Both the position numbers and the translations under genes were made by a program. Shown one piece after another: positions 799 through 4,616 of a DNA stretch of 41,835 bases (position 1 is its first letter; every line of letters begins with the position of its first letter). Below the pieces are notes generated by a model. That model did no database searches. It was not told the origin of the DNA and saw only the letters and a list, made by a program, of their open reading frames with translations. Source of the DNA: Bacteroidales bacterium (GTDB lineage Bacteria > Bacteroidota > Bacteroidia > Bacteroidales > UBA7960); contig SKSE01000023.1 in the NCBI GenBank assembly GCA_007118135.1, forward strand, positions 1 through 41,835, read 5' to 3'.

Positions 799-998
799 TT
801 AAAATTTAAAGTTTAAAATTCGAACCGAGGCGCAGCCGAGCTCAGCGAAGCTAATATCGAATATCGAATATCGAATATCGAATATCGAATATCGAAATCC
901 GAAACCATTAATTTTTCAACTCTTCAACTCTTCCACTTTTCAACCTTTCCACTCGCTTATCAACTTATCCACCCTTCAACTCTTCAACTCTTCCATCG
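799..998. repeat. Mosaic of low-complexity repeats between hemL and hemE: TTTAAAATT-like tract, 6 x AATATCG (853-894), and CAACTCTTC-type repeats (about 911-995)
   Basis: Direct reading: six consecutive 7-mers aatatcg at 853-894; perfect 21-nt direct repeat ttcaactcttcaactcttcca at 915-935 and 975-995. Confidence 0.93.
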
Positions 999-2271
999 CC
1001 TTCAAGCTCGCTTCCACCGTTTTATCAATCTCTTCATCGGTGATGCATGCAGGAATAAAGGCTGCCTCAAATTGAGAGGGTGGCAGGTAAATGCCTTGCT
1101 CCAGCATGGCTTTGAAATATCTGCCGAATTTTCCGGTATCGGATTGATTGGCGTCATCAAAGGATTTAACTGTATTCAGTTTTGTGAAAAACAGTGTGAT
1201 CATAGAACCTACCCTGTTTACAACACCTTTGTGCCCGGTTTGTTGCAGGTTATCTCTGAAACCTTTTTCCAGGCGCGCGGATTTCTCTTCCAGGTTTTTG
1301 TGGAATCCAGGTGTTTCGTCAATGATTTTAAGGGTTGCCAGTCCGGCAGCCATGGCCAGCGGGTTACCGGAAAGAGTACCGGCCTGGTAGATGGGTCCTG
1401 CCGGAGCCAGCTTTTCCATGATCTCTTTAGGTCCGCCGTAGGCACCTACAGGAAGCCCGCCGCCGATGATTTTCCCCAGACAGGTAATATCAGGAGTGAT
1501 TCCAAAATGCTCCTGTGCTCCTCCTTTGGCCAGTCGGAAACCGGTCATTACCTCATCAAAGATGAGCAGGGTGCCGTATTTTTGTGTCAGTCCTCTTAAC
1601 CCATCCAGAAATTCCTTATCGGGAATGACCACACCCATGTTTCCGACGACGGGTTCCAGAATTATGGCTGCAATATCATCACCATGTTTTTCAAAAAGTT
1701 TTGCTACACCTTCAAGATCGTTGTATCGGGCTGTGAGAGTATCCTGGGCGGTTCCCTGTGTAACTCCCGGACTATCAGGCAAACCCAGTGTCAGTGCACC
1801 GGAACCGGCTTTAATGAGAAAACTATCGGCATGTCCGTGATAGCAACCTTCAAATTTGATGAATTTGTTGCGGCCGGTATATCCTCTTGCGAGGCGAAGG
1901 GCACTCATGCAGGCTTCGGTACCTGAATTTACCATGCGCACAATGTCCATAGAGGGTTTCATCTTTTTGATTTGTTCAGCCATATCGGTCTCACCCACGG
2001 TGGGGGCACCGTAGCTGGTTCCGCGCTGCGCGGCTTCGGTAATGGCCTTAATAACACGCTCATCGGCATGACCTACTATCATGGGTCCCCATGATGAAAC
2101 GTAATCGATATATTCATTTCCGTCGATATCCCACATTTTGGCCCCTTTGGCCCTGGTAATAAAAACCGGATTTCCGCCCACACTTTTGAATGCTCTGGCT
2201 GGACTGTTCACCCCGCCGGGGAGGCTCTTCCGGGCCCTGTCGAATTGGTTGATGCTTTTGGTGAAGTTCAT
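976..2271 (-). CDS. hemL: Glutamate-1-semialdehyde 2,1-aminomutase
   Basis: 431 aa; [83 protein letters not shown]. Confidence 0.97.
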
Positions 2272-2352: not shown

Positions 2353-2390
2353 CCGACCTACTCCCCCTTCGAAGGGGGCCGGGGGGATGT
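2353..2390. repeat. Left 38-nt terminal inverted repeat of DUF559 cassette, contains palindrome CCCCCTTCGAAGGGGG (2363-2378)
   Basis: ccgacctactcccccttcgaagggggccggggggatgt; 34/38 identical to the reverse complement of 2772-2809. Confidence 0.92.
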
Positions 2391-2759
2391 CTTGCGTTTT
2401 ATTTCATCAATAGTAATTTCCAAGGCTCTCAAAACGTTGAACATATCTTTTTTAACCTGCAAATCCGGAAAACGCAAAAAAGTAATCTCATACTCTTCAA
2501 GTTCCTTTTGTCTGTTACTATCATAATCAATTTTATGGTCATGACTTAAGCCATCGATTTCTATGGCAAGTTTTAATTCATGGCAGTAAAAATCAACAAT
2601 ATAATTCAATAGTGGTACTTGACGGTGAAACTCAACACCATAGGCCTTGCCTTTAATTTCTTTCCATAAAAGTATTTCCGAAAGAGTGCTTTGTTTTCTT
2701 AAGATTCGCGCAAGTTCTTTTAGTTTGGGGTTGTATGGGATTATTTTGTTGTGGTTCAT
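2358..2759 (-). CDS. DUF559 domain protein (Vsr/PD-(D/E)XK-like predicted endonuclease)
   Basis: 133 aa; LRKQSTLSEILLWKEIKGKAYGVEFHRQVPLLNYIVDFYCHELKLAIEIDGLSHD...RQKELEEYEITFLRF, typical DUF559 core; last 10 residues TSPRPPSKGE lie inside the left repeat. Confidence 0.92.
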   Translation of the reverse strand: MNHNKIIPYNPKLKELARILRKQSTLSEILLWKEIKGKAYGVEFHRQVPLLNYIVDFYCHELKLAIEIDGLSHDHKIDYDSNRQKELEEYEITFLRFPDLQVKKDMFNVLRALEITIDEIKRKTSPRPPSKGE

Positions 2760-2771
2760 TTTAATGTTTTA

Positions 2772-2809
2772 ACATCCCCCCGGCCCCCTTGAAAGGGGGA
2801 GTTGGCCGG
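2772..2809. repeat. Right 38-nt terminal inverted repeat of DUF559 cassette
   Basis: acatccccccggcccccttgaaagggggagttggccgg, inverted relative to 2353-2390. Confidence 0.92.
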
Positions 2810-2833: not shown

Positions 2834-3820
2834 TCAAAAGCTTTTCTTTCCCTCCAACCACTGCGCAACCTCCTTCGCATGATACGTAATAATTATATCC
2901 GCTCCGGCGCGGCGAATGGATTTCAGGATTTCTTTGGTGATGCGTTGACCGTCAATCCAGCCTTTTTCTGTGGCGGCTTTTACCATGGAGAATTCACCGC
3001 TGACATTGTAGGCGGCAATGGGAATATTGAACTGGTCTTTTGCCCGTTGAATGATATCCAGGTAGGATAAGGCCGGTTTTACCATGATGATATCTGCACC
3101 TTCTTCAATATCCAGTTCGATTTCGCGCATGGCTTCGTTGCTGTTGGCGGGGTTCATCTGGTAAGTCTGGCGGTCGCCAAACTGCGGTGCGCTTTCAGCT
3201 GCTTCGCGGAAGGGCCCGTAAAAGGCTGATGCATATTTGGCCGAGTATGCCATGATGGGAATATTGCTGAACCCTTCATCGTCCAATGCTTCGCGAATAT
3301 AGGCCACTCTGCCGTCCATCATATCGCTGGGGGCTACCATATCCACTCCGGCTTTGGCGAAGGCAAGGGATTGTTTGGCCAGGGTTTCCAGCGTCAGATC
3401 ATTATCTACATCGTTGTTGACAATGGTGCCGCAATGTCCGTGGGTAGTATATTCACAATTGCACACATCGGCAATAACATACATTTCGGGTAGTTCTTTT
3501 TTGATGGCCCAGATGGCAGTGGGTATGATGGCGTTTTCTTCTGCACCCACCAGGCCATGCTCGTCTTTGGTTTCAGGAATACCAAACAGTAAAACGGACT
3601 TGATTCCCAATTGATAAAGCTCTTTGCACTCCTGCACAAGCATATCAACCGAAAGCTGATAGTTGCCGGGCATGGAGTTTATGGGGTTTTTAACATTCTG
3701 ACCCGGGCAGGCAAACAGAGGCATCACCAGATTTTCAAGCGAAACTGTGGTTTCGTTTACCATCGCCCGGATCACCGGGTTGGAACGAAGTCTTCTTAAA
3801 CGTGTGGTTGGGAAATACAT
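2834..3820 (-). CDS. hemB: Porphobilinogen synthase (delta-aminolevulinic acid dehydratase)
   Basis: ORF extends to 3886, but the conserved start is MYFPTTRLRRLRSNPVIRAMV at 3820; HGHCG, SDMMDGRV, MAYSAKYASAFYGPFREAA, MVKPALSYLDI. Confidence 0.96.
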   Translation of the reverse strand: MYFPTTRLRRLRSNPVIRAMVNETTVSLENLVMPLFACPGQNVKNPINSMPGNYQLSVDMLVQECKELYQLGIKSVLLFGIPETKDEHGLVGAEENAIIPTAIWAIKKELPEMYVIADVCNCEYTTHGHCGTIVNNDVDNDLTLETLAKQSLAFAKAGVDMVAPSDMMDGRVAYIREALDDEGFSNIPIMAYSAKYASAFYGPFREAAESAPQFGDRQTYQMNPANSNEAMREIELDIEEGADIIMVKPALSYLDIIQRAKDQFNIPIAAYNVSGEFSMVKAATEKGWIDGQRITKEILKSIRRAGADIIITYHAKEVAQWLEGKKSF

Positions 3821-3863
3821 ATCTTGACTTTTTGAGTTGCTGTAAAAACTAAGTTCAAAGTTA

Positions 3864-4616
3864 CTATTCAGAAAAATAATCATCAATAGCCTGAACCAGC
3901 GATTGAGCGGAAGGGTAGGGGGCTGTAACTGCTACATCATAACCACATTCCTTTATAGCAAGGGCCGTCGTATTGCCTATGGCTGCCAAAAGCAACGATT
4001 CTGCATTTTGAAAAGCATCCAGAAAAGCATAAAATCCCGAGGGCGATGTAAAAATACAAATATCTGCTTCTCTGTTTTTTACCAGTCCGGCTATCTGTTC
4101 ATCCACCCTTGAAAGTGGTATTGTTTCATAGACGTTTATCCGTTTAACGGTAGCCATTTCAGAAAGCGTTGTTTCCAGAAAATCAGGAGCTTTGTTACCG
4201 ACAGCAAGTAGTATTTTATTGCCGGCAATGGAGGCATTCTCCAGAAGAAATTTTGCCAGGTCTCTGGCGTCGGTTCCCGGGTTCGGGAATGCCGCTTTAT
4301 GACCGTATTTTTCCAGTTCGGCACCCGTAGCCTGCCCAACCACTGCAATTTTGATGTGGGATGGGAGATTAAAATCACTCTGGAAATCAGAAAGATTTTC
4401 GAAAAATCCTCGCACACCTTTTTTGCTGGTGAATACCAGTAAATCAAATTCTCCCGGCTGGATAAGGCGACTGAGTTCTTCTTCATGAATCCGGATGGTA
4501 CGGGTTTCTATCATGGGAAGATTTAAGGCCTTTGCTCCTTTGGCTTCCAGGAGCATCAGCATTTCCTCCGCCTGATCGGCCGGTTGGGTGGTTATTATGA
4601 CTTTGCCTTTCAGCAT
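3864..4616 (-). CDS. hemD: Uroporphyrinogen-III synthase
   Basis: 250 aa HemD-like (VFTSKKGVRGFFENL, IFTSPSGFYAFLDAF, AIGNTTALAIKECGYDVAVTAPYPSAQSLVQAI), located in the heme operon. Confidence 0.93.
   Translation of the reverse strand: MLKGKVIITTQPADQAEEMLMLLEAKGAKALNLPMIETRTIRIHEEELSRLIQPGEFDLLVFTSKKGVRGFFENLSDFQSDFNLPSHIKIAVVGQATGAELEKYGHKAAFPNPGTDARDLAKFLLENASIAGNKILLAVGNKAPDFLETTLSEMATVKRINVYETIPLSRVDEQIAGLVKNREADICIFTSPSGFYAFLDAFQNAESLLLAAIGNTTALAIKECGYDVAVTAPYPSAQSLVQAIDDYFSE

Follow-up and report, generated by a model that had tools for sequence, protein, structure and literature searches.

The window analysed here, a 41,835-nt stretch from the draft genome of a Bacteroidales bacterium (G000), carries a DUF559 nuclease gene between two inverted repeats in the hemL-hemB spacer. 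The features at this locus are the following.

976..2271, - strand: hemL, flanking host gene (Aminotran_3 match)
2353..2809, no strand: the cassette as a whole, a DUF559 gene with one repeat at either end, located in the hemL-hemB spacer and with a counterpart at hemB-hemL in the congener G010
2353..2390, + strand: terminal repeat distal to hemB, CCGACCTACT-CCCCCTTCGAAGGGGG-CCGGGGGGATGT, with its ATGT end facing the cassette interior and dispersed copies of the same layout
2363..2378, no strand: palindrome core CCCCCTTCGAAGGGGG
2358..2759, - strand: DUF559 (PF04480) nuclease ORF of 133 aa with a predicted Vsr/EDxHD-like fold, its stop codon lying in the repeat
2772..2809, - strand: terminal repeat adjoining hemB, inverted copy (89%)
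2784..2799, no strand: palindrome core CCCCCTTGAAAGGGGG
2834..3886, - strand: hemB, flanking host gene (ALAD match)

The repeats at 2353-2390 and 2772-2809 are the sole inverted repeat of the spacer, 38 nt long, complementary at 34 of 38 positions (89%) and 381 nt apart, and thus provide the cassette with terminal inverted repeats, a feature of IS and MITEs. The original prediction had placed such repeats around a DUF559 ORF between hemB and hemL, and both its coordinates and its description were right; the overlapping genes that it reported in the hem operon were also seen, for hemB, hemD and hemC. Its repeat-ORF-repeat layout stands in that both repeats are present, but the repeat at 2353-2390 lies partly inside the ORF, encoding the C-terminus of the DUF559 protein (SPRPPSKGE) and the stop codon. 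The folding energy of the single repeats was ordinary when compared with shuffled sequences (z of 0.58 and -1.92), which lends no support to an unusual single-strand stability, so that the case for the element rests on repetition and pairing. A known structured RNA was rejected after an Rfam search of the window gave no match, as was a known defence gene, for which PADLOC returned a weak match alone (E = 0.0014).

The ORF matched PF04480 with E = 9e-26 and 90.4 bits, above the curated cut-off of 20.6, and the only other domain match was a weak one to MTES_1575. Seven candidate catalytic residues (E28, D56, E67, D69, H73, D80, R83) were invariant in 32 aligned sequences, and we take them to be equivalent to the active-site residues of Vsr. 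A structure search with the AlphaFold2 model (pLDDT 87.8) gave as top match a Neisseria DUF559-like protein (3hrl), followed by the catalytic domain of I-Bth0305I (3r3p_B; E = 2.6e-3, probability 1.00, TM-target 0.67), while Vsr itself came lower in the list. The dN/dS of 0.075 between the window gene and its G010 counterpart indicates that the cassette gene is under purifying selection.

A search for the repeat in the host and related genomes, proposed with the original prediction, uncovered further copies. The exact palindrome CCCCCTTnnAAGGGGG occurs 16 times, mostly as solo repeats, in the 3.0-Mb draft host genome, where the reversed control pattern is absent and one DUF559 gene was detected. 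The repeat consensus, read from outer to inner end, is (T)GCCGGCCtAyT-CCCCCTTnnAAGGGGG-nnn-GGGGGATGT. The congener G006 holds 31 palindromes, most of them in inverted doublets spaced by 62-66 bp, the spacers being related, yet a search of this genome (100% complete) detected no DUF559 gene. The G006 doublets at L094-L100 and L118-L120 are REPIN-like and dispersed, some of them having in common the spacer TTTAACTAACAATAcATTTAA. Solo repeats and doublets of ~110 bp are common, contrary to the idea that full copies always hold DUF559. An AGTAGG-like foot was seen in some class-A copies and was missing from class B and from the MetH ends described below, the tag position being compared only roughly; a GTAG or CGTC tag at the hairpin foot is a feature of RAYT/REPIN systems (PMC3733652). 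A literature search for peptides encoded by the repeats gave no match.

The host also has a Y1 (IS200/RAYT-type) transposase at L124 (G000:C6:11707-12048), with hairpins of its own around it, CCGTCAGCTGAAGCTGACGG and CCGTTGGTTTTAACCAACGG. It is the only confident Y1 of this genome, and its hairpins differ from the cassette repeat. Across the genus, the repeat is present with no confident Y1 match in G010, G008, G002 and G009, and a Y1 is present with the repeat absent in G011, G004, G005 and G007. Because the host Y1 has other hairpins, and Y1 and repeat fail to co-occur, a RAYT was rejected as the mover of the cassette.

Our surveys covered more than 1000 genomes overall. For a set of 77 DUF559 loci from named genomes (at least 47% identity), we scored the best pairing between the 250-bp flanks, a measure independent of the repeat classes. 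The median score was 37, as opposed to 18 at 1214 positions drawn at random from these loci (p = 3e-38), and scores of at least 36 were reached by 58% of the DUF559 loci, 0.25% of the random positions and 2.7% of 403 gene flanks. Four hairpin classes were then looked for within 200 bp of each gene; a cognate GC-rich hairpin was found on at least one side of 92% of the 77 DUF559 genes, 0.16% of the random positions and 2.2% of the 403 other genes, and on both sides of 57%, 0% and 0%, respectively, percentages that lean upward given that the classes were defined after viewing the loci. The random-position and gene-flank controls rule out a chance pairing of common intergenic palindromes. All classes have a common architecture, in which a C-run/G-run hairpin is followed after 2-4 nt by another run of G and, in most cases, by a TGT-like tail. 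A strict polarity rule, with the tail always inward, proved false since polarity varies among loci.

The class of repeat was also linked to the phylogeny of the nuclease. On a tree of 80 DUF559 proteins, repeat class changed 10 times as compared with a mean of 39 and a minimum of 32 after shuffling; the tree rests on few alignment columns, many of its forks are weak, and the relatedness of hosts contributes to the clustering. Two nuclease clades with two repeat classes exist in Mucilaginibacter; paralogues of both clades occur together in M. polytrichastri, and likewise in M. rigui. Among Flavobacteriaceae, the class-B repeat was found in 11 of 13 genomes whose nuclease shares 71% identity or more with the class-B query, none of the 6 with a nuclease at 57-65%, 3 of 20 with a more distant DUF559, and none of the 41 without a match to the query (p = 8e-10 against the 11 of 13). 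By these sequence comparisons, the repeat tracks the DUF559 clade and not the host.

The hemB-hemL junction was compared in relatives, and the cassette was found in G010 and absent from this position in other congeners. G010 has a matching cassette with a DUF559 of 92% protein identity, the spacer of G011 (~100 bp) shows no cassette trace, and that of G006 (95 bp) contains a likely half-repeat remnant, with a score reached by 0.15% of shuffles. Other spacers are found in G003 and G005. In G008, a small ORF with a four-helix-bundle-like product, presumably S23-like, adjoins hemB in the place of the cassette (L011, 2505-3191), with a tandem ATACGAATATCGAA array ahead of it. Small inserts seem to be tolerated in the hemB-hemL spacer. 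The hemB tree is compatible with G008 having lost the cassette or never having had it. Between G000 and G010, dS was 0.64 for the cassette, 1.13 for hemB and 1.58 for hemL; the lower cassette value hints at a later arrival or an exchange, with codon bias as an alternative cause. We propose that the cassette may have entered the spacer before G000 and G010 split, or have been exchanged between them afterwards. Since it is common to two species, this locus does not demonstrate a recent jump. Only 15 of 59 draft genomes of relatives yielded hemB itself, suggesting that the heme pathway is patchy in the family.

Evidence of movement came from other loci. Two genomes each contain a pair of cassettes (L226/L234 and L255/L256) with 85-90% identity over ~480 bp and unrelated sequences beyond, the similarity stopping at the repeat on one side and extending some tens of bases further on the other. 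In G558, two identical DUF559 genes lie 3.25 kb apart (L248, 4784-5213 and 8035-8464), apparently through segmental duplication. We also examined one Flavobacterium cassette site (L199) in 350 genomes of one genus. The site is filled in G995, G592, G933 and G632, as well as at loci L200, L204 and L207; it is empty, with both flanking genes kept, in G1052, G582, G608, G1016 and others; and a single repeat is left in G1003 as a remnant allele. The empty allele reads TTGAAAACAAAATAGACCTTC and the filled one TTGAAAAAAGTG-TAACATCCCCC, ~460 bp, then GGGGGATGT-AAAAAAATAGACCTTC. In the filled allele, the upstream gene ends at a new stop codon that the cassette supplies. The empty-site alleles anticipated by the original prediction were thus found, next to filled and remnant states, at an orthologous site. 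A gain in one clade is the simplest reading, repeated loss being formally possible. No clean target-site duplication was found; the A-rich L199 site would mask one, and none was clear at MetH, where the linker is replaced. None of the outcomes that had been named as speaking against mobility (repeat-free, vertically inherited DUF559; no other copies; no empty sites) was found, and we consider it very probable that the cassette is mobile.

The window cassette falls in the free-standing DUF559 clades. In a sister clade, DUF559 is found in frame within LeuRS, MetH, HsdR, HsdM, MerA, UvrC and an N6/N4 methyltransferase, as confirmed by their domains, with repeat-derived linkers on its flanks and no intein match. 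Among the ~158 best matches listed, ~48 DUF559 domains were in frames of more than 350 aa. In-frame loci include L030, L033, L045, L048, L052, L143, L146, L161 and L166 for LeuRS, L149, L151, L156, L158 and L167 for MetH, L147, L150 and L154 for HsdR, and L141 for UvrC. In the congener G002, the HMA and reductase domains of mercuric reductase MerA are separated by an in-frame DUF559 (L057, 1141-3312). Across 109 genomes of one genus, 12 MetH frames exceeded the usual 893-915 aa by ~130-190 aa; the four that were read all carry a cassette with 26-bp inverted ends, the remaining eight being assigned on frame length alone, and the linker is empty in most genomes of that genus. The MetH copies group in a single clade (support 89), as do the HsdR copies (100), and MerA is nested among LeuRS copies; in-frame copies mostly reuse the same linkers. 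Their inverted repeats are often degenerate, 23% scoring at least 30.

Outside Bacteroidota, paired repeats flank plasmid-borne DUF559 genes of Deinococcus, Qipengyuania, Sphingobium, Novosphingobium and Pseudanabaena, the last with repeat doublets on both sides, and on a phage contig; one-sided hairpins were seen at several others. Cross-phylum matches among metagenome bins may include binning errors, a problem from which plasmid records are free. On plasmids of two Deinococcus species, DUF559 and GC-rich hairpins lie in a 4-hydroxyphenylacetate gene cluster with differing gene order (L299 and L304). No convincing flanking repeat pair was found at E. coli ycjD, one P. aeruginosa DUF559 and one Neisseria copy, indicating that ordinary genes of the DUF559 family exist as well.

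We favour, with moderate confidence, the reading of the unit as a minimal selfish mobile cassette, in which a Vsr-fold (PD-(D/E)XK/EDxHD-type) nuclease gene and its cognate end hairpins would mobilise themselves. The match of the predicted fold to I-Bth0305I and the invariant residues favour a nuclease that acts on the repeat and is copied by repair. In this scheme, DUF559 would recognise its repeat in hairpin, cruciform or duplex form and nick or cut there or at a target, and repair of the break would then copy the cassette in, much as happens in homing or in the spread of REPINs. Repeats without the gene would give rise to solo copies and short doublets that could be moved in trans. Of the original proposal of a RAYT-like but nuclease-based element, the architecture held up, and the coupling of DUF559 and repeat proved general, clade-specific and present across phyla; self-mobilisation by DUF559, including its nicking activity, what is cut and how the copy is made, is what we infer and hold to be reasonably probable. 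We are evenly divided on the broader possibility of an as yet undescribed class of autonomous elements in several phyla, whose sole enzyme, Vsr/DUF559, would mobilise its own hairpins and shed REPIN-like families, with one lineage inserting in frame and unspliced.

Because the repeats persist without the gene in G006, the main rival is that the palindromes are REPINs or MITEs moved in trans by a RAYT, an IS200-type transposase or host recombination, with DUF559 as cargo serving mismatch repair or defence. The many repeats of G006, the excess of solos and doublets over full cassettes, and the link of the DUF559 protein VsrA of Caulobacter to DNA damage and to cytosine methylation (PMC12907096) fit this model. 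However, the different hairpins of the only confident host Y1 argue against a RAYT as mover here, Y1 and repeat occur in different congeners (four with each alone), the repeat sequence follows the DUF559 clade instead of the host, and the cassettes read hold no other gene between their repeats, so we regard cargo as unlikely. It is less likely still that DUF559 homes by recognising a target gene sequence, like the endonucleases of inteins, with the palindromes as tolerated ends such as translatable linkers or insulators. Such homing would agree with the I-Bth0305I fold match and the site-specific MetH and HsdR sub-lineages with their mostly reused linkers, but free-standing cassettes, including that of the window, occupy unrelated spacers, and the repeats exist in multiple copies and as doublets and vary together with the nuclease, none of which end sequences alone need.

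Already disfavoured, and very improbable in our view, is a vertically inherited repair nuclease flanked by palindromes that act as terminators or mRNA-stability hairpins. The low dN/dS, the synteny of some cassettes between sister species and the E. coli ycjD without paired repeats are in its favour; it is opposed by the filled, empty and remnant alleles in Flavobacterium, the within-genome duplicates in new contexts, the in-frame insertions in several unrelated host genes, and the lack of a flanking hairpin pair at all 403 control genes.

Its recurrence across bacteria, its variable presence at one site in related species and its in-frame insertions in essential genes give the unit the look of a class of minimal mobile DNA that has drawn little notice. 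Hardly anything has been published on DUF559, widespread though the family is, and many bacterial genomes are strewn with GC-rich palindromes that are followed by a G-run and have no assigned mover. Their coupling offers a testable origin for both, in which the RAYT/REPIN lifestyle would have been arrived at a second time by non-homologous means. If true, the apparently non-spliced in-frame insertions in LeuRS, MetH, HsdR and UvrC would be mobile DNA and not domain architecture. Our search of the literature on DUF559 or EDxHD with palindromes, REP or inverted repeats, with subscription papers mostly outside its reach, found no description of the link, which may nevertheless have been described before.

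Among known systems, the best reading is that the architecture resembles RAYT/REPIN with a non-homologous enzyme. Like RAYT/REP/REPIN systems (PMC3116915, PMC2817692), the cassette has a single gene with palindromic repeats on both sides, cognate clade-specific repeats, and dispersed solo and doublet derivatives, the doublets being seen in G006 and beside a Pseudanabaena DUF559. The RAYT/REPIN enzyme is an HUH Y1 transposase (PF01797), whereas that of the cassette is a PD-(D/E)XK/Vsr-type nuclease (PF04480) with no Y1 between the repeats; as the defining enzyme is absent, the cassette is not a RAYT system. It also has 16-31 exact palindromes instead of hundreds, a different repeat architecture and foot, and the ability to sit in genes in frame. 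With EDxHD/Vsr-fold homing endonucleases (I-Bth0305I, PDB 3r3p; PMC3943268), among which one cyanobacterial DUF559 gene has already been placed (PMC9403480), it has in common the predicted catalytic fold, a selfish endonuclease gene and site-specific lineages in conserved genes, but it lacks an intron or intein, consists of the catalytic domain alone and has terminal palindromes and dispersed repeats. Vsr/VsrA repair endonucleases (PDB 1vsr; Caulobacter VsrA, PMC12907096) are related in nuclease fold and family, DUF559 being present in VsrA; unlike them, the cassette contains no cytosine methyltransferase, is bounded by palindromes and is patchily distributed. Finally, Rickettsia palindromic elements (RPEs) and other MITEs are likewise palindromic and found in frame in host genes, but RPEs are ~150 bp long without a known enzyme (PMC10969869), whereas the cassette carries its own nuclease and could serve as a model for such enzyme-less palindromic elements.
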